A stretch of 64,000 bases of DNA. Origin: Mycobacterium sp. UM_CSW. GTDB lineage: Bacteria > Actinomycetota > Actinomycetes > Mycobacteriales > Mycobacteriaceae. Made by a program: the position numbers and the translations under genes. The stretch is from assembly GCF_000455205.1 (NCBI RefSeq), contig NZ_AUWQ01000010.1, positions 62,001-126,000 of the forward strand, in the 5' to 3' direction. The notes under the pieces are model-generated. The model saw only the letters and a program-made list of their open reading frames with translations. It made no database searches and was not told where the DNA came from. Shown piece by piece: positions 7,341 to 53,255 of the stretch (the stretch's first letter is position 1; the number at the start of each line of letters is the position of its first letter).

Positions 7341-9971
7341 TCAGGGCTCGTCGGGACTGCTGCGAACGAGCACGGAAACGACTGACCCCCTGACGGTTTC
7401 GCCGGCCGCAGTGCTGAGGAACACCGCGTAGTACTGGTCGGGCACCGACTGCGCCACCGCGATCTGAACCTCCGCCGTGGCCGATCCGTCGGCGCCGAAT
7501 TGACCGGACGAGGGCGCCACCGTGACCCCCGCGTCGGAGGACGTGCCGGTGATGCGGTAGCGGTCGGCGCCGTCGACCATCCGTTGCAGGTCGACCTTGA
7601 CGGTGCCCGTATGCCCGGGCGCGATCGCGACGATGGGTCGCGAGACGTTGACGGTCACCGCCGAGCTTCCCGCACCGAACGACGGCGGCGCGGAGGACTC
7701 GGCGGTGCCCCACGCCTTGTTCGGGTAGGCAGCCAGTGAAAACTTCAGCTCTCCCCCGTCGCGGACGACGCGCTCCGGGATCCACGTGCGGTCGGTGGCC
7801 TCCCCGTCGACGGACAGGCCACCGATGTATTTCAGGCGGTGCGGTCCGGACGCGCCCGGGGCGGAGATCCGGATGAAACCGCCTTGCGGAAGGGCGATTA
7901 CGGCGCGGTCGAACAGCGGCGTGGCCACGGTGAGGATCGGCGTCCCCGGGGTGCTCGGGTACAGGCCGAGCGCGGCCCAGACGTACCAGCTGGACAGCGC
8001 GCCGAGGTCGTCGTTGCCGGGTGCACCGTCGGGCGTCGGGCCGAACAGTCCGCGGACCCGGTCGACCGTGAGCTGAGTCTTCCAGGGCTGGCCGACGTAG
8101 TTGTACAGCCAGGGCACCCCGAAGCCCGGTTCGTTGCCGGCCCACAGATACGGCTCCTTGGGACCCACGTTCAGCTCTTCGGTGAGCCGGTCGAGCCGGC
8201 CGGCGACGGTGCTTCGGCCGCCGAGAGCGGTCACCAGGCCGGCGACGTTCTGCGGCACCCACCAGAGGTACTGCTCGGCGTTGCCCTCGTCGAACCCCTC
8301 CTGGCCGAAACCCGAACCGGACTCTACGAATCCCGGGCCCGGGGGGAAGAATCCCATCGCGTTGCGGGGCGAGATGTACCGGGTGCTGGGGTTGAACAGG
8401 TTCTGCCAGTACTGCGCCCGGTACTGGAATTCGGCGGCCGTCGCCGCGTCGCCGAGCGATTCGGCGAAGCGGGAGATGGCGAAGTCGTCGACGGACCATT
8501 CGAGCGTGATCGAAGCGCCCGCGCCGAACCCCGCCGTGTCCGGTAGGTAACCCAACCGCAGATAGGTGGCGATGCCCGGTCGCTCCACGTAGCCGTCCAA
8601 CCCGATGCCGCCCTCGGTCGCCGCGCGCACCATGTAGCGCAATGCCGTACGGGCGTCGAAGTCCTTGGCGCCGAAGGTGTATAGGTTCGCGATGAGCGGT
8701 ACCACGCTGTCTCCGGTCATCTCGCCGGTTGCCGAATTCGCCAGCGCCCAACGGGGAAACGAACCGCTCTGCTCGGCGTCGTTGACCAGCGACTGGGCCA
8801 TGTCACTGGCCTGCTTCGGGAAGAGCAGCCCCTGCAGGGCGGCCAGGCCCCGGTAGGTGTCCCAGTCGGAGAAGTTGGCGTACTGGGTGCGCCCCTTTTC
8901 CACGGTGTGGATGAGGCCGTCGAAGCCGATGTAGCGCCCGTCGGCGTCGTTGAAGGTGTTGGGGTGCAGCAGCGAGTGGTACAGGGAGGTGTAGAAGGTG
9001 TCCAGGTTGCCAATGTTGCGCCCGGCCACCGCGATACACGACAGCGTGGCATTCCATTCGGAAGCCGCGGCCGCGCGCACCTGGTCGAAGCCGGCTCCGC
9101 CCTCGGCCGCGAGGTTCGCGCGCGCGCCGTCGATGCCGACGTAGGAGATCGCGGTCCGCACCTCGATCGCCGAGCCGGGCGGGAACTCCACGTAGCCCCC
9201 GCTGTAGGGCGACGCCGCGGTGCGGGCGCCGGCGACCACCGAATAGCCGTCCCAGGCGCCGTAGGAGATGAACGGCCGGCTGAACTTCATCGCGAAGTAC
9301 ACCGTGTAGGTGTTCCTCTTGCCGCAGAACCCGCCGCTGGTCGCCCATCCGGTGATCGTGGTGTTGTCCTCGCCGATCTGGATGGTGGCGCGCGAGTTGC
9401 CCGCCAGCGACGCACCGCTACGCACGTGGAACAAGGCGGGTCGGCCGTTGCGCGGGTAGCGGAAGCGGCCGACGCCGGTGCGGGTGGTGGCGGTGAGTTC
9501 GGCGGTCACGCCGGTGCCGGGGAACCGAACCGTGTAATACCCGGGTTGGCCCTGCTCGGTGTCGTCGTGGGCGATCCGTTCCCACGCGTTCCACGGCTGC
9601 GCGCCGATCGGTGTGGTGGTCGGCAGCATCGAGATGTCGCCGAACGCGGCGCAACCCACCGAGGCGTGCGTCATGCTGAACCCGCTGGAGCGCGAGTTGT
9701 CGTAGTTGTAGCCGGCGTAGTTGCCGACGGTGTCCGGCGAATACTGCACCATTCCAAACGGCGCGGAGGCGCCGGGAAAGTTGTTGATCTCCCCCACGGT
9801 CTCACCGCCCGTCCCGGTACCGATGAGGGTGTCGACGTGGTCGACGGGATCGGTCACGAGCGGGGGTTCGCCGTCGTAGGCGATCGGCGGGGCCGCCGCG
9901 ACGAACGTCAGGAACACGGCGCCCGCCGCGACCAACGCGATGAGGGCCCGATAACGGGCGCGTGACCGCAT
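7341..9971 (-). CDS. Secreted GH92 alpha-1,2-mannosidase-type glycosidase (Rv0584 homologue)
   Basis: Predicted exported glycoside hydrolase of family 92, a calcium-dependent group of exo-alpha-mannosidases. It has 876 residues, against 877 in Rv0584, and starts at ATG 9971 with a basic N-terminus and hydrophobic signal segment ([18 protein letters not shown]). Family landmarks are visible: the N-terminal [21 protein letters not shown] region, [22 protein letters not shown] in the (alpha/alpha)6 barrel, and [18 protein letters not shown] near the C-terminus. The final 100 residues form a beta-sandwich-like tail. It could trim mannose from lipoarabinomannan-type glycans, but the substrate is not shown here. 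It is divergent from lpqN. Confidence 0.92.
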
Positions 9972-41503: not shown

Positions 41504-41839
41504 ATGAAGGCTTCGAGGCTGGCTTCTCTCATCGCCATGGCGGGCGCCGCTGTCGCACTGGCGGCGCCCGCGCAGGCCGATGACTACGACTACGTGTTCA
41601 AGAGCACGGTCAACAAGTTCGGCGTGTACGGTCCGCAGGACCAGCTCGCCTGGTTGGCGAAGATCAGCTGTGAGCGGATCGGCCGGGGCGTGGACGGCGA
41701 CCCGTACAAGTCGGCCACCTTCGTCCAGCGCAACCTGCCCCGGGGCACCACCGAGGGCCAGGCGTTCCAGTTCCTGGGCGCCGCGATCGACCACTACTGC
41801 CCCGACCAGGTCGGCTTCATCCAGCGGGCCGGCAGCTAG
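41504..41839 (+). CDS. Secreted DUF732 protein (Rv0559c homologue)
   Basis: Small exported protein, 111 residues against 112 in Rv0559c. The signal peptide ([20 protein letters not shown]) ends at APAQADDY. The mature part is a DUF732-type helical domain with two cysteines ([11 protein letters not shown] and [10 protein letters not shown]). Function unknown. It is cotranscribed with the salicylate-type methyltransferase in M. tuberculosis, and the 26-bp spacing here suggests the same. The stop overlaps the convergent menG stop by 4 bp (TAG on both strands). Confidence 0.92.
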
Positions 41840-42531
41840 ACGCGATCCGGCTTGTACCCGGCGTGCAACGCCACGATGCCGCCGGTCAGGTTGCGCCAGC
41901 GCACCGCCGACCACCCGGCCGCTGAAATTCGGTGCGCCAGCGTCGGCTGGTCGGGCCAGGCCCTGATCGACTCCGCGAGGTACACGTAGGCGTCGGGGTT
42001 GGACGACACCGCCCGCGCCACCCTCGGCAGCGCCCGCATCAGGTACTCCTTGTAGACGGTGGCGAAAAGCGCGTTGGTGGGCGTGGAGAATTCGCACACC
42101 ACCAGCCGGCCGCCGGGCCGGGTGACGCGGAACATCTCGCGCAGCGCCGCCTGCTGGTCGGCCACGTTGCGCAACCCGAAGCTGATGGTGACCGCGTCGA
42201 ACACCGCGTCGCCGAACGGCAGCTTGGTGGCGTCACCGGCGACCTTCGGCACCTGGCGACCCGCCCCCGCCGCGAGCATCCCGACGGAGAAATCCGCGGC
42301 CACGCACCACGCCCCGGATTTCCTCAGCTCCACGGTCGACACCGCGGTGCCCGCGGCCAGGTCCAGCACCCGCTGGCCCGGGCCGAGCCGCAGCGCCGAG
42401 CGGGTAGCCCGCCGCCAGTACCGGTCCTGCCCCAGCGACAGCACGGTGTTGGTCACGTCGTAGCGGCGGGCGACCCCGTCGAACATCGATGCGACATCCC
42501 GGGGGTTCTTGTCCAACGCCGCGCGGCTCAC
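41836..42531 (-). CDS. menG: Demethylmenaquinone methyltransferase
   Basis: SAM-dependent C-methylation of demethylmenaquinone, the last ring step of menaquinone synthesis (UbiE/MenG family, called menH or ubiE in Rv0558 annotation). It has 231 residues with motif [38 protein letters not shown] and [17 protein letters not shown]. The start is at 42531 ([10 protein letters not shown]). It is adjacent to other men genes in M. tuberculosis; here the sulfotransferase unit separates it from mgtA and menD. Confidence 0.95.
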
Positions 42532-42549: not shown

Positions 42550-43866
42550 TCAATATTGTCGGTACCTTCGCTGGACGTGTTCCTGGCGGACCCGGATCTG
42601 CTCTCGGCGCTCCTCGGGAGTGACGGCGCGGGTGGTCGCCGGAAGGTGTTGACGCACGTCGGCCAGCGGCACCTTGGTGACCGTCGCCTTCGGCAATTGG
42701 GGCGGGGGCGTGGAGTACGTCCACCGCAGGGCCAGAAACCCGCCGCGGTGCCCAGCGGTGTCGAGCCAGTTCGGCACGCCGGGGTCGCGGTGGGCGACCA
42801 CGTAGCGGAAGGTCCCGTCCGGGTCCGGCTCGGCCTGAAACCCGTTCAGGCTGCTGATGTGGTTGGCGTAATCGAGTGACTCGCCCCAGAGGTTCGACAG
42901 GTGAAAGCCCATGTAGGCCGGCGCCACCGGGACGGCGACCTCGATGAGCAGGGCCTCGTCTTGCTCGAGGTCGAATACGCCGCCGGAGTAGACGTTGGTG
43001 CTTTGCCCGCCGCCCATGGCGAGGTTGGCGAGCGCCGGCTCGTTGAGGGCGTTGCGCGGCATCAGGGTGAACCCGTCACCGTTCTTGTCGCCGTGCGCCT
43101 CCAACACCACGTCGTAGAACTCGTTCCAGAACCTCATCTGGTTTTCCACGATCGAGCCGACGCGACGGAGGTGATCGGCCGCCGCGGCCGGGTCGAGCGG
43201 CGCCGGGCTTTCGCCCTCCTTGCCCAGCTGCACGATGTGCAGCTCGGGTGATTCCTCGCGTTCCCAGTCGTGAAAGAGTATGCGCGCGATCAGAAATCGT
43301 GCCGTTTGGGTGCCGTCGTCCGTGGCCGTGGCGATGAAGTTGCCGGTGCGGCCGGCCGGCCGCCGGGGAGCCAGCAGGATCTCGAAGCGACCGTCGTCGT
43401 CGACGACGAGGTCGGCGAGGTCCAACGATCCGGTGACGGCGCGCCCGCCCGGGACGAGCTCGGCGAGGCTGCCGGTGTCGCCGGCGTACACGGTGTGGGC
43501 CTCAAAGATGATGTACTGCGGGGCCTTTCGGCGGTCTCCGACGGCGAGCCGGCCGCGCACCCGGTAGTCCTTGGCGCCGTCGATGGCGGCCGAAAGGTAC
43601 AGGGCGTCGGCGTTGTCGATGGTGGCCTTGTCGAGTGGTTGGATGGCGCGCCGGAAATACGGGAACTCGGGATCCTCGAAGAACGCCCGCTCGATGGCGC
43701 TGAACACGAAGCCGAGCAGGTAGCGGTGCCCCTCCGCCAGGCCCTGTTCGGTCGGCGGTGGCGCGTGCAGCTCGTCGGAGTCGACGGCGTCGCGGGCCCG
43801 GTTGAGGGCGTCGATCATGTCCGCCCAGGCCGCGCGGAGTTCGACCCGGGTCGATTCAGTGGACAT
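42550..43866 (-). CDS. DUF1214-like domain protein
   Basis: Protein of 438 residues with no signal or clear membrane span. The C-terminal part resembles DUF1214 (about 290-390; GFHLSNLWGESLDYANH, AHRDPGVPNWLDTAG). The N-terminal part is mixed helical and strand and includes FEAHTVYAGDTGSLAEL. The activity is unknown. The start is ATG at 43866, 11 bp inside the 3' end of the sulfotransferase gene, so the two are translationally linked; the frame further upstream (43989) is inside that gene. A joint role with the sulfotransferase is inferred. Not present at this site in H37Rv. Confidence 0.82.
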   Translation of the reverse strand: MSTESTRVELRAAWADMIDALNRARDAVDSDELHAPPPTEQGLAEGHRYLLGFVFSAIERAFFEDPEFPYFRRAIQPLDKATIDNADALYLSAAIDGAKDYRVRGRLAVGDRRKAPQYIIFEAHTVYAGDTGSLAELVPGGRAVTGSLDLADLVVDDDGRFEILLAPRRPAGRTGNFIATATDDGTQTARFLIARILFHDWEREESPELHIVQLGKEGESPAPLDPAAAADHLRRVGSIVENQMRFWNEFYDVVLEAHGDKNGDGFTLMPRNALNEPALANLAMGGGQSTNVYSGGVFDLEQDEALLIEVAVPVAPAYMGFHLSNLWGESLDYANHISSLNGFQAEPDPDGTFRYVVAHRDPGVPNWLDTAGHRGGFLALRWTYSTPPPQLPKATVTKVPLADVRQHLPATTRAVTPEERREQIRVRQEHVQRRYRQY

Positions 43867-45007
43867 TCGCGTCCTCTCCTTCGGTGTCCCACTGGTATTC
43901 GTCGAACAGGGCGGCCAGGCGGGTGTGGATCTCGCGGGGGTCGAGGCCGAATTCCTCGAGGCTGTAGCGGTGGGCCGATTCGTGCCCACCGCCCGCCGAC
44001 CGGAATGCCTTGGCGGCCTTCGGTCCCAGGTCGAGCTCCAGTTCCCGGTAGATGCGGCGCATGGTGTCCTCGGGTTGCGCGATCAGCTCGCGATAGTCGA
44101 CGACGACCGAGCGAACCTCGGGGTGCCTGGCCAGAACGTCAAGCGGGCGTTGGTAGGTGTCGAACGATTGATCGGCCAAGACGCGCAGCGACTTCGCGAT
44201 CAGGCGTTCGTCGCGCCCGCGCAGGCCCCATTCGGTCTTCAGCATCTTGAGCAGGCTCGGGATCGTCTCGTCGGGATTACGCATGGGCACAATGAATCTC
44301 GCGTCGGGGAATGTCTCGATCAGGGATTCGACGCGCCCGCAGAAGGTGGGGTTCTTGCTGAGGTGTGTGCCGCCGCCGTTGAGCGCGATTTGTCGCCGGA
44401 CGCATTCGGAGTAGAAGTCCATCACCCGGCGCCGCTTGCGTTCGGGCCATTGGTCGACGTGGTAGAAGTCGAGCTCACCCATGAAGGGGAATATCACGAT
44501 CCAGAAGCCCGAGCACAGCGACCAGGTGAGAAAGAAGTCGTCCTCTTCGGGGACGAAGAAGCCGGTCTTGTGCATGTCGTCGGTCGCGGCGAACCGTTGC
44601 TCCTCGATCTCGTCGAGGCGGTGGCGCAGACGCCTGCCGAACACCGCGGCATCGACCCGAAACAGCAGGCGCAGCAACCGCTTTTCCAGCAGCGACGGGA
44701 AGAACAGCTCGTACATCAGGGCATAGCTGAACTGGGGGTCGGCGGCCATCAGCCGATGCAGGTAGGTCGTGCCGCTTCGGGCGTGCCCGATGCAAAACGT
44801 CGGCCCGGTCACCCGCGTGCGGCGCAGTGTTGGGAAGAGGATCGGGTCGAGGGCGAAGCACACGGCGTGGATGGCGGCGACGAGCGGAACGCCGAGGAGG
44901 AATGCGAAGTAGCGCGACCAGCGCTTCGACGCCGGTGGATCCCGGCGCAACAGCCCGAGCATCGTCCGGTAATTGGGCCAGTCGAAGTAGAAGCGCGTGC
45001 CCGGCAT
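43856..45007 (-). CDS. PAPS-dependent sulfotransferase family protein
   Basis: Transfers sulfate from PAPS to an alcohol or glycan. It has 383 residues with the 5'-phosphosulfate loop GHARSGTTYLHRLM (about 74-87) and the 3'-phosphate site FIVPMRNPDETIPSLLK. An N-terminal hydrophobic segment (YFAFLLGVPLVAAIHAVCFAL, about residues 33-53) may anchor it to the membrane. It belongs to the large mycobacterial sulfotransferase_3/Stf-like group, and the acceptor is unknown. A strong GAGGAGG ribosome-binding site precedes ATG 45007. It is divergent from the MarR gene across a shared palindrome and overlaps the DUF1214-like gene. Confidence 0.9.
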   Translation of the reverse strand: MPGTRFYFDWPNYRTMLGLLRRDPPASKRWSRYFAFLLGVPLVAAIHAVCFALDPILFPTLRRTRVTGPTFCIGHARSGTTYLHRLMAADPQFSYALMYELFFPSLLEKRLLRLLFRVDAAVFGRRLRHRLDEIEEQRFAATDDMHKTGFFVPEEDDFFLTWSLCSGFWIVIFPFMGELDFYHVDQWPERKRRRVMDFYSECVRRQIALNGGGTHLSKNPTFCGRVESLIETFPDARFIVPMRNPDETIPSLLKMLKTEWGLRGRDERLIAKSLRVLADQSFDTYQRPLDVLARHPEVRSVVVDYRELIAQPEDTMRRIYRELELDLGPKAAKAFRSAGGGHESAHRYSLEEFGLDPREIHTRLAALFDEYQWDTEGEDANVH

Positions 45008-45049
45008 GAAACCTCCTCAGCGCGAGCTGATTTCGGGCAGGCTATCGCC

Positions 45050-45077
45050 ATATATTTGACATTGTCAAGTATATCTT
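45050..45077. promoter_or_regulatory. 25-bp dyad operator between sulfotransferase and MarR genes, with MarR -10
   Basis: ATATATTTGACA (45050-45061) and TGTCAAGTATAT (45063-45074) are complementary at 11 of 12 positions around one base. It overlaps the MarR -10 TATCTT (45072-45077), which lies 7 nt before its GTG. The AT-rich TTGACA/TGTCAA core is typical of MarR operators. Confidence 0.7.
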
Positions 45078-45084
45078 TGATACC

Positions 45085-45561
45085 GTGACGGCTGTGACGT
45101 ACGCGCCCAAGCTGGACTCCGTGGATTCCATCAGCGCTGCGCTTTCGCGAGTGGTGCGGCTCAGCGTGAGTCGTTCGGCGTTCGCGCGGCAGGCGTCGGC
45201 GGCGGACACCGAGCTGTCACAGCCGTCGTACATGCTGCTGCGCGTGTTGATCGATGAGGGACCCCTGCCGATCGGGCGCCTGGCGACCATGGCGCACATG
45301 GACGTCGGGATGGCCACTCGCCGGGTGCGGGCGCTGGCCGACGCGGGGCTGGTGACGCGGCGCGCCGATCCGGGAGACGGGCGCGTATCGGTGATCGCGA
45401 CGACGCCGGACGGCGAACGCGCCGCGGGATCGCTGCACGAGGTGCGACGGGAGCACCTGGCCCGGGCGCTTTCGGGTTGGTCGGCGGCCGAGCTCCAGCA
45501 GTTCGACCGGCTGTTGACGAAGTTCCTCGAGGACACGACGAAGACACCGATCAAGGCCTAG
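45085..45561 (+). CDS. MarR-family transcriptional regulator
   Basis: Winged-helix regulator of 158 residues. The DNA-binding region runs about 48-115 (IGRLATMAHMDVGMATRRVRALADAGLVTR, then the wing ADPGDGRVSVIATT). It starts at GTG 45085, at leaderless spacing behind TATCTT. The dyad over its promoter and toward the divergent sulfotransferase suggests autoregulation and control of that operon. The SDR gene follows 45 bp downstream and may be cotranscribed. The ligand is probably a small aromatic or lipophilic acid, as in many MarR proteins, but is not shown. Confidence 0.92.
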   Translation: MTAVTYAPKLDSVDSISAALSRVVRLSVSRSAFARQASAADTELSQPSYMLLRVLIDEGPLPIGRLATMAHMDVGMATRRVRALADAGLVTRRADPGDGRVSVIATTPDGERAAGSLHEVRREHLARALSGWSAAELQQFDRLLTKFLEDTTKTPIKA

Positions 45562-45606
45562 CGGCTCCGCGGGAATGGGACGCCGGTGAATGCGTTATAG
45601 GGCTGC

Positions 45607-46431
45607 GTGAGCGAAAAAGTTTGGTTTATCACCGGTACATCACGAGGCTTCGGACGAGACTGGGCGATCGCCGCGTTGGAGCGCGGCGACAAGGTCGCCG
45701 CGACGGCACGCAACATTGCGACGCTGGATGACCTGGTCGACAAGTACGGCGACGCGCTGCTGCCGATTCAGTTGGACGTCACGGATCGCGACGGGGACTT
45801 CGCGGCGGTCAAGCGGGCCCACGATCACTTCGGGCGCCTGGACATCGTCGTGAACAACGCCGGCTACGGCCACTTCGGGTTCATCGAGGAGCTGTCCGAG
45901 CAAGAGGCGCGTGCCCAGATCGAGACCAACGTGTTCGGCGCGCTGTGGGTGACCCAGGCGGCGTTGCCGTACCTGCGCGAGCAGCGCAGCGGGCACATCA
46001 TCCAGGTGTCCTCGATCGGCGGCATCGTCGCGTTCCCGTTGGTCGGCATCTACCACGCGTCGAAGTGGGCGCTGGAGGGCTTCTCGCAGGCGCTGGCCCT
46101 GGAGGTCGCGCCGTTCGGCATCCACGTCACGCTCGTCGAGCCGGGGGGCTTCGACACCGACTGGGCGGGAGCGTCGGCCAAGCACTCCGAGCCCCTGCCG
46201 GCATACGACGAGGTTCGCGCCGCCGTCCTGGCTGAGCGCAGCAAGCGATGGGCCAGCCCTGGCGACCCGTCCGCCTCGGCGGCCGCGCTACTAAAGGTGG
46301 TGGACGCCGACGAGCCGCCACTGCGGGTGTTCTTCGGCGCCAGCCCGCTGCAAACGGCGAAGGCCGATTATGAGAGCCGGCTACGCAATTGGGAGCAGTG
46401 GCAGTCCGTCGCGGAGTTGGCGCAGGGGTAG
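45607..46431 (+). CDS. SDR-family oxidoreductase
   Basis: Classical-type short-chain dehydrogenase of 274 residues. Rossmann motif TGTSRGFGRDWA, NNAGYG, active-site serine region VSSIGG and catalytic YHASKWAL are all present. The C-terminal region is longer than the minimum and ends AELAQG. The start is GTG at 45607. It lies 45 bp after the MarR gene on the same strand and 1 bp from the convergent mgtA stop. It may act on the product or substrate of the divergent sulfotransferase unit; substrate unknown. Confidence 0.9.
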   Translation: MSEKVWFITGTSRGFGRDWAIAALERGDKVAATARNIATLDDLVDKYGDALLPIQLDVTDRDGDFAAVKRAHDHFGRLDIVVNNAGYGHFGFIEELSEQEARAQIETNVFGALWVTQAALPYLREQRSGHIIQVSSIGGIVAFPLVGIYHASKWALEGFSQALALEVAPFGIHVTLVEPGGFDTDWAGASAKHSEPLPAYDEVRAAVLAERSKRWASPGDPSASAAALLKVVDADEPPLRVFFGASPLQTAKADYESRLRNWEQWQSVAELAQG

Positions 46432-46432
46432 C

Positions 46433-47587
46433 TCACTGCCCCTGCGCGTAGCGTTTCGCGAACATCCGCCGCCGGGCGAAGGGCGACAGCACGGCCTCGT
46501 AGTGGCCGAGCAGCTCGTCGCAGATGACCGGCCAGCTGCGCCCGAGCACGCTGCGCCGCGCGGCCGGCGCGTAGCGGTGACGTTCGGCGATCAGGTGCTC
46601 GACCGCGTCGGGTAGGCGCGCCTCGAATTCGTTGACTTCCAACAGCAGACCGGTGCGGTACGGGGCGACGAGGTCGCGCGGTCCCCCGGCGTCGGGGGCG
46701 ATCACCGGCAGTCCCGATGCCAGCGCCTCCTGCACGACCTGGCAGAACGTCTCGTGCTCACCGGGATGCACGAAGACGTCCATGCTGGCGTACGCGGCGG
46801 CAAGTTCCTCGCCGTACAACGCGCCGGTGAAAACCGCTGTGGGCATGGCGGATTGCAGTTTCGCTTGGTCGACGCCGTCGCCGACGATGACGACCTGAAC
46901 GGAATCGTTGGCGTTCAGCGCGACCAGCCGCTCGACGTGCTTCTCCGGGGCGAGCCGGCCCACGAACCCGACGATCGGCTTGCCGGCCGGCGACCACCGC
47001 CGCCGCAGCGCCTCGTCGCGCCCCGACGGCGCGAACCGCAGCACGTCGACGCCGCGCGCCCACCGGTGCACACGCGGGAACCTATGGGCGACAAGCGAAT
47101 CCATCGTCACGCTGGACGGCGCCAGCGTACGGTCGGCCAGGCTGTGCAGGTGACGAAACCAGGCCCACGCCGCACGCGTCGTCATCGGAATGCCGTAGCT
47201 CTCCGCGAAACCCGGGACGTCCGTCTGGTACACCGCGACCGTCGGCACGCCCAGCCAGCGGGCCGCCTTCACCCCGCCGTACCCGAGCAGCGCCGGCGAA
47301 GCCAGGTGCACCACGTCGGGATCGAATCCCCGTAGCACGCTCACCATTCGGGGCATGGGAACCCCGAGCGGCAACGTGGTCACCTTGGGGAACATTCGCG
47401 ACGGCACCCGATGCACCCGGATGCCGTCGTGAATGCGGTCCGCCCGCGGCTGACCCGGCGGGTTGTCGGGGGCGATGACTAGGGCTTCGTGGCCGGTGCG
47501 ACGCAGGTGCTCCAGGACACGCAGCACTGAGTTACTGACGCCATTGACATTGGGGAGGAAGGACTCGGCGACGATTGCAACGCGCAC
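46433..47587 (-). CDS. mgtA: GT4 mannosyltransferase (Rv0557 homologue)
   Basis: Glycosyltransferase of 384 residues that in M. tuberculosis (MgtA, earlier called PimB) mannosylates a glucuronosyl-diacylglycerol-type glycolipid from GDP-mannose at the membrane. N-terminal [14 protein letters not shown] and the C-terminal donor site [20 protein letters not shown], an EX7E motif, are clear. The start is the codon at 47587. It is last in a leftward operon Rv0552-menC-bpoC-menD-Rv0556-mgtA, 29 bp after Rv0556. Linking quinone genes to a lipoglycan enzyme is a conserved mycobacterial arrangement. Confidence 0.93.
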
Positions 47588-53209: not shown

Positions 53210-53249
53210 CGGGTCGGAGGGTCCGGCCCAGCCGAATTGCAACACGTTC

Positions 53250-53255
53250 TAGTCT
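53250..53255 (+). promoter_or_regulatory. -10 element predicting leaderless fadD8
   Basis: TAGTCT ends 7 nt before the ATG at 53263; there is no ribosome-binding site in between. Confidence 0.55.

Follow-up and report, generated by a model that had tools for sequence, protein, structure and literature searches.

A probable MarR-controlled cassette pairing a sulfotransferase with a DUF1214-like protein at the menG–mgtA site of a Mycobacterium genome

Within a 64,000-nucleotide stretch of Mycobacterium sp. UM_CSW (hereafter the window; positions 62001-126000 of contig NZ_AUWQ01000010.1, our C10, in a 6.39-Mb Mycobacterium-type genome), we describe a compact cassette of three genes in which marR diverges from a sulfotransferase (ST) gene that overlaps the gene for a DUF1214-like protein. 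Comparison of related loci establishes the gene content of this cassette, its insertion between menG and an mgtA-type glycosyltransferase gene, an operator and promoter geometry held in common by its relatives, the family-wide pairing of ST with DUF1214-like genes and the presence in ST of the residues of a PAPS (3'-phosphoadenosine 5'-phosphosulfate) site. On balance we favour a reading in which MarR controls the cassette, ST is a membrane-held PAPS sulfotransferase, and the DUF1214-like partner handles either the acceptor or the resulting sulfate ester. The genes, together with an adjoining short-chain dehydrogenase/reductase (SDR) gene and the flanks, are arranged as follows.

41836..42531, minus strand: menG (demethylmenaquinone methyltransferase; NF001241), flank of the insertion
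42550..43866, minus strand: DUF1214-like protein P0002, 438 aa (PF06742; double jelly-roll)
43856..43866, minus strand: 11-bp overlap of the ST end with the DUF1214-like start
43856..45007, minus strand: ST P0001, probably PAPS-type, 383 aa (PF13469)
45085..45561, plus strand: MarR-family regulator P0003, GTG start (PF01047), presumed local repressor
45607..46431, plus strand: SDR oxidoreductase P0004 (PF00106, NF006114)
46433..47587, minus strand: mgtA-type glycosyltransferase (PF13439 + PF00534), flank of the insertion

The four open reading frames, the 11-bp overlap and a dyad upstream of ST had been picked out by an earlier, sequence-only reading, and all lie at the positions it gave. Family assignments are clear for ST (PF13469, Sulfotransfer_3, 98.8 bits against a cut-off of 27), MarR (PF01047 winged-helix profile, 49.6 against 24.6), the SDR (PF00106, 171.4 against 26.6; NF006114, 455.9 against 290) and menG (NF001241, 424.9 against 327). 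P0002 scores 29.0 bits with PF06742 (cut-off 25); a genome-level profile search put the same family at this place at 20.5 bits, under the cut-off. The glycosyltransferase, which we take to be mgtA, is matched at E<=1e-150 in 57 of 59 genus genomes, and 30 mgtA loci of the genus, the window itself included, were kept for comparison of the insertion site. MarR lies beside mgtA or its SDR in five of these, mgtA-SDR-menG occurs without the cassette in seven, mgtA-menG stands alone in ten, and the remaining eight carry other genes at the site. Since the mgtA-SDR-menG arrangement exists without the insert, the SDR is a resident of the site. Of the 16 named loci that bear MarR, 11 are at mgtA/menG and five (L020-L024) are elsewhere, with no copy of this SDR found near the cassette in those five. 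The inserted cassette thus consists of marR and ST-DUF1214, with the SDR outside it: the proposal of a compact unit inserted between menG and mgtA, carrying a MarR and an operator of its own, is borne out by the locus comparison, while the fourth gene has to be taken out of it. The site itself has been rearranged more than once, because the SDR is found on the menG side in L018 and is absent from L012, L014, L016, L019 and L031. The P0002 clade (E<=1e-60) is present in 19 of 148 genus genomes, counting that of the window. In one locus (L144, genome G015, 3-1495) an LLM (luciferase-like monooxygenase)-like gene, identified by eye, and the cassette's MarR lie directly at the mgtA site; this genome is without a P0002 match at the same threshold, and the locus may be a remnant linking two arrangements. 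Two ideas about the origin of the insert were set aside. All 28 plasmid records matching P0002 do so at <60% identity (21 are Sphingobium or Novosphingobium), which speaks against plasmid carriage of the window clade, and GC content, taken per 500 bases, ranges over 0.63-0.69 within the insert and 0.64-0.72 in its surroundings, giving no sign of recent foreign origin.

The divergent marR/ST promoter region contains a palindrome, which at the level of sequence fits a MarR-family regulator, and the elements read in this region are these.

45012..45018, minus strand: GAGGAGG, ribosome-binding site for ST, read from the sequence
45039..45044, minus strand: ST promoter, -10 box TAGCCT (form TANNNT), with a spacer of 18 nt
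45050..45074: 25-bp dyad, outer AT-rich arms differing among relatives
45056..45068: operator core TTGACWNWGTCAA, a 13-mer inside the dyad, common to relatives
45063-45068, minus strand: -35 box TTGACA of the ST promoter, overlapped by the operator core
45072..45077, plus strand: TATCTT, a candidate -10 box for marR, read from the sequence, 7 nt before the GTG at 45085

The two arms of the dyad (45050-45061 and 45063-45074, 12 nt each around a 1-nt centre) are 92% complementary (11/12). The core TTGACWNWGTCAA lies directly before ST in all 16 MarR-bearing loci (L009, L011-L024, L031) and nowhere else in them. A further 18 genus-genome loci with short flanks, some of them probably from the same genomes as the 16, have the 13-mer in 15 cases (L103-L117) and not in three (L118-L120, with no MarR in view). 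MarR and the operator thus co-occur across loci. Where MarR and ST share a strand (L024, L109, L110, L113-L117), or an LLM gene intervenes (L020, L022), the operator is still with the ST promoter, and in L020, L021, L023 and L108 it is present as a tandem pair, 17 bp apart, before ST. The part shared among relatives is 13 bp, and the 25-bp operator first proposed must be shortened accordingly: in an alignment of 26 segments (the window, the 16 MarR loci and nine further genus loci), agreement outside the 13-mer averages 0.50 upstream and 0.55 downstream. The TANNNT box, the mycobacterial form of the -10 element, has its T, A and T each in 0.96 of these segments, 18 nt after TTGACA, and is independent of the pattern by which the segments were selected. 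From the position of the 13-mer and this conserved spacing it follows that the operator lies over the ST promoter's -35 box. The placing of the TATCTT box close to the GTG suggests that the marR mRNA is leaderless.

Within the 64-kb window the 13-mer is the sole match even with one mismatch (mean expected 0.09; nine of 100 shuffles also give one such match), and the exact core occurs at three places in the 6.39-Mb genome, with none for the reversed control. Its return at the same position in relatives is stronger evidence for the 13-mer than these chance counts. The second genome site is doubled and belongs to another small divergon, formed by an SDR gene and a gene that by eye is TetR-like; its tandem AGTTGAC[AG]TTGTCAACT sites, at about 5715-5765 of L121 (contig C1 of the window's genome), contain the 13-mer core. 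The third is inside a long coding open reading frame. As MarR targets both look unrelated, and MarR looks local because they are better explained otherwise.

The pairing of ST with the DUF1214-like gene extends well beyond the cassette. Among 79 loci fetched with the DUF1214-like protein alone (from the best 80 of 273 confirmed stretches), 61 have an ST within 3 kb of the DUF1214-like gene; these include a weak opposite-strand match in L066 and an ST 2,983 bases away in L057. At the level of the order, an alignment-profile search matched 26 of 81 genomes in 59 rows, and in all of the 30 loci kept, two of them from the window's genome, ST is at the flank. The ST profile behind both sets was itself made from relatives that these loci contain. 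In the genome of the window itself, all six DUF1214-like places are within ~1.1 kb of one of nine PF13469 places, and this is not chance, since by our own arithmetic a random gene would show such proximity in ~0.5% of cases. Distances among STs also correlate with those among their DUF partners (r=0.89, with 0/9999 permutations as high, 19 pairs). By the titles of their contigs, paired loci come from mycobacteria and Acidimicrobiales, Deltaproteobacteria/Myxococcota, Gammaproteobacteria, Alphaproteobacteria and Acidobacteria. The gene-neighbourhood search that the sequence-only reading proposed, with a pair never conserved elsewhere as the outcome that would undo it, has therefore come out in its favour. 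The 11-bp overlap recurs in L011, L012, L015, L016, L018, L026 and L031, suggesting that translation of the two genes is coupled. Neighbouring genes come from a simple chooser based on composition, which missed some (for instance the ST of L098 and the DUF of L028); for this reason SDR and LLM neighbours could be counted only roughly, and no conclusion rests on these counts. Four contigs of Novosphingobium or Sphingomonadales (L037, L040, L061, L075) have no ST within 3 kb of the DUF1214-like gene.

Residues invariant in 21 STs are G74, R77, G79, T80, T81, K218, R243 and S251, and all of these except K218 make up the 5'-phosphosulfate loop and the 3'-phosphate arginine/serine motif that hold the cofactor in a PAPS site; P0001 is thus probably a PAPS sulfotransferase. 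It scores 23.1 bits with the model for the NoeE sulfotransferase (NF052394), for which the equivalog cut-off is 500. The STs of the window clade have a distinctive N-terminus, with a best 19-residue hydropathy of 1.86-2.66 in 13 of 13 sequences vs 0.92-1.33 in eight of eight others. In an AlphaFold2 model (predicted local distance difference test, pLDDT, 89.0) this hydrophobic region forms one helix, residues 29-57, which could hold ST at the membrane. Foldseek matches the model to STF9 (2z6v) and STF1 (2zq5).

The model of P0002 is of high confidence (pLDDT 94.1), and its first Foldseek match is 6ans, a Burkholderia cenocepacia protein that is itself uncharacterised (TMt 0.88-0.89; 30-31% identity over residues 3-399). 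VPA0106 (3u07) and VPA0735 (3vb9, 2p3y) of Vibrio parahaemolyticus follow, with a similar fold (E 8.5e-9 to 3.7e-7). Both are presumably DUF1254/DUF1214 proteins and differ from P0002, to which they are 8-12% identical: a DUF1254 domain was not found in P0002 up to E 0.1, leaving DUF1214 as its sole domain. The invariant residues in 47 sequences are D87, G105, G159, R195, A305, P362, N366, W367, T370, G376 and R381, six of the eleven falling within or just past the stretch DPGVPNWLDTAGH. The Pfam entry DUF1214 gives its function as unknown.

The genes around related pairs bear on what the two proteins might do together; cluster membership was assigned by BLASTP, and families were confirmed only for selected proteins. 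Five gammaproteobacterial loci from metagenome-assembled genomes (L044, L054, L067, L079, L082) have DUF1214-ST together with APS (adenosine 5'-phosphosulfate) kinase and ATP sulfurylase clusters, an association predicted to be one of PAPS supply. In L082, and there alone, the domains were confirmed (TIGR00455, 260.5 against a cut-off of 138.7; TIGR00339, 380.6 against 323); this locus has a 4-bp overlap between DUF and ST, with short gaps before the genes that come after them. The name Klebsiella pneumoniae on the L082 record is probably wrong, since the contig is from a metagenome-assembled genome and groups with other gammaproteobacterial loci. Because the pairing spans several phyla and five loci carry PAPS-synthesis genes, the DUF1214-like partner probably works in sulfate chemistry.

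A second kind of setting is represented by the pair on contig C55 of the window's own genome (locus L095). This ST is closely related to 2zq5, whose title is STF1 of M. tuberculosis, and the DUF protein is the best own-genome paralogue of P0002 (38% over 192-434). An SDR of NF005909 type lies between DUF and ST, and a nearby Rieske-type gene, which we presume to be KshA, is given only a weak sterol-monooxygenase match by NCBIfam. A KstR-type palindrome, TAGAACGTGTTCTA, is positioned ~10 bp upstream of the DUF gene, and the 14-kb locus has four distinct KstR-type places, one of them within the ST coding sequence. PMC1995591 gives a KstR motif with positive binding at Rv3531c/Rv3532. On C5 of the same genome the pair adjoins opposite-strand genes for a CoA-transferase, an amidohydrolase, a ChsH2-type OB (oligonucleotide/oligosaccharide-binding) protein, a thiolase C-terminal domain and an acyl-CoA dehydrogenase. 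CoA-transferase and acyl-CoA dehydrogenase genes also precede DUF1214 in L084, with no ST within 3 kb, and L057:2852-8101 is a row of ST, CoA-transferase, dehydratase-region, SRPBCC and DUF1214 genes. The ST of the L057 row is of the window clade and its DUF1214 protein of a distant type. These settings look more like breakdown than biosynthesis; of the five other pairs of the window's genome (C55, C5, C106, C36 and C4), the survey covered C55 and C5. TIGR03617 LLM genes, both over the cut-off, are beside the pair in L020 and on C106.

Several observations weigh against the reading that we favour. That the six clade loci in which no MarR is seen (L025-L030) all lack the 13-mer speaks for the link between operator and MarR, but L025 gives only 298 bases before ST and L030 shows no ST; in addition, L010 begins within the DUF gene and has neither MarR nor 13-mer in view. 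The 13-mer pattern derives from the loci looked at first, and its counts include these loci together with others. The 26 aligned segments were chosen by that pattern, which makes its ten fixed bases invariant by construction, and many are from close relatives or the same genomes. A generic sigma-70 scan of the region found no promoter, a miss that we attribute to the -10 box fitting TATAAT at only three of six bases. As to the pairing, 18 of the 79 loci are without an ST within 3 kb. Four of these (L010, L030, L072, L073) are cut near the gene on one side and two (L058, L065) have an ST further off, leaving 12 with no ST at all; the DUF1214-like proteins of L037 and L061 start with signal-peptide-like stretches (by eye). 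Such DUF1214-like proteins with no ST neighbour make an obligate ST-DUF complex less likely, and DUF1214 could be an enzyme in its own right. ST-DUF fusions, sought as evidence of contact, were flagged in none of the 79 loci. The permutation test on the correlation of ST and DUF distances leaves shared ancestry in, and its 19 pairs include one (L057) whose genes are ~3 kb apart. Finally, the window proteins are only 22% (ST) and 32% (DUF) identical to those of the KstR-linked C55 pair, and at such identities a sterol-like substrate need not carry over.

With these reservations, we picture the system as follows. The cassette is inserted between the resident SDR and menG, with marR divergent from ST-DUF1214. 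Without inducer, a MarR dimer on TTGACATTGTCAA would sit over the ST promoter's -35 box and crowd the promoter of marR itself, and a small hydrophobic ligand would free MarR from the operator. With PAPS as donor, the membrane-held ST could then sulfate a hydroxyl group on a compound that is hydrophobic and perhaps terpenoid- or sterol-like. The DUF1214-like double jelly-roll may act on this compound too, either by handling it as the acceptor or by processing its sulfate ester.

The sequence-only reading had the pair as a biosynthetic unit making a stable sulfated metabolite or lipid, with DUF1214 as the acceptor-binding or tailoring partner. We hold this to be possible, if tentatively: the conserved PAPS-site residues, the membrane-type helix of the window-clade ST and the PAPS-supply genes beside related pairs would all suit such a role, but the cassette is marR, ST and DUF1214 only, with no assembly-type gene, and two related pairs of the same genome are in or beside breakdown-type sets. 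The same two pairs (C55 and C5, of five others in the genome), tied as they are to a KstR-type site or to acyl-CoA-type genes, also tell against inducible detoxification, in which ST would conjugate a foreign compound, hydrophobic or phenolic, that also serves as the MarR ligand, and DUF1214 would shield or deliver it. We regard this second account as doubtful; it would explain a local MarR with one likely site and a patchy presence (19/148 genus genomes), while the nearest named MarR models (Rv0880 type, BilQ, HpaR) are far under their cut-offs and uninformative on the ligand. The SDR is 3' of marR on the same strand with a 45-nt gap, and other SDRs accompany related pairs, as expected of a working member that oxidises or reduces a compound prior to its sulfation. 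This is very unlikely, however, as the same SDR stands at mgtA-menG without the cassette in seven of 30 loci and passes NF006114, whereas those of L082 and L095 pass NF005909. Stf3 acts in sulfomenaquinone formation and has cyp128 as a neighbour, and an ST with a membrane-type helix next to menG might likewise sulfate menaquinone; this we consider highly improbable, given that five of the 16 MarR loci (L020-L024) have the cassette away from menG/mgtA and that no P450 is among its genes.

Returning to the membrane PAPS sulfotransferase and its DUF1214-like partner, the breakdown-type settings of C55 and C5 suggest that sulfate may be a transient activating group and not part of the final product. 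An extension of this idea, which we put forward as speculative and rather unlikely, is that ST and DUF1214 together constitute a widespread system of sulfate-activated elimination, in which ST would use PAPS to turn a hydroxyl that is otherwise difficult to remove into a sulfate leaving group and the double jelly-roll of DUF1214 would expel it, by dehydration or rearrangement. Precedent for sulfation followed by elimination exists in the STs of curacin and olefin synthase and in retinol dehydratase, and all are Foldseek matches of the ST model: 4gbm and 4gox at E 3.9e-5 and 2.9e-5, and retinol dehydratase (1x8k, 1fml) at 0.044 and 0.062, with identities to ST of 16%, 14% and 12% for 4gbm, 4gox and retinol dehydratase. 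To our knowledge none of these has a DUF1214 partner. If true, the extension would make sulfate-activated elimination a step in degrading sterol- or terpenoid-like compounds, and DUF1214 would gain its first function. The ST and DUF1214 families are both known; on their partnership, a literature search found no paper joining 'DUF1214' with 'sulfotransferase', although most subscription-journal papers are outside its coverage and the absence is not proof. A cassette with one clear operator also offers a clean system for finding both inducer and substrate.

STF9 of M. avium (2z6v) has a fold like that of ST (template modelling score 0.71/0.69) at 19% identity. With STF1 of M. tuberculosis (2zq5), which we take to be Rv3529c, and the neighbouring Rv3530c-Rv3531c, the cassette shares the ST family and fold, and the run of genes around the C55 relative holds a DUF1214-like gene and a KstR-type palindrome. 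The C55 set differs in having the SDR between DUF and ST, with DUF first and ST last, in having a KstR-type site where the cassette has MarR, and in lacking the hydrophobic N-terminal ST helix. Conversely, the window ST is without the STF1/STF9-type N-terminal G-L-x-D-F-G of the C55 ST and has RFYFDW and the hydrophobic helix instead. The pairing therefore provides a lead on the genes around STF1; Rv3529c and Rv3531c are listed as hypothetical in PMC6429209. Among the best 80 of 273 stretches, the nearest named relatives of P0002 are in Mycobacterium sp. E796 (95%) and 1245805.9 (93%), and an Rfam scan of the window returned only a tRNA, elsewhere in the stretch. The cassette promoter has no KstR palindrome, there being no match between 43129 and 53237. 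Matches of KstR type in the window are at 8392-8404, 43116-43128 and 53238-53250 (0.06 expected), the middle one inside the DUF1214-like coding sequence.

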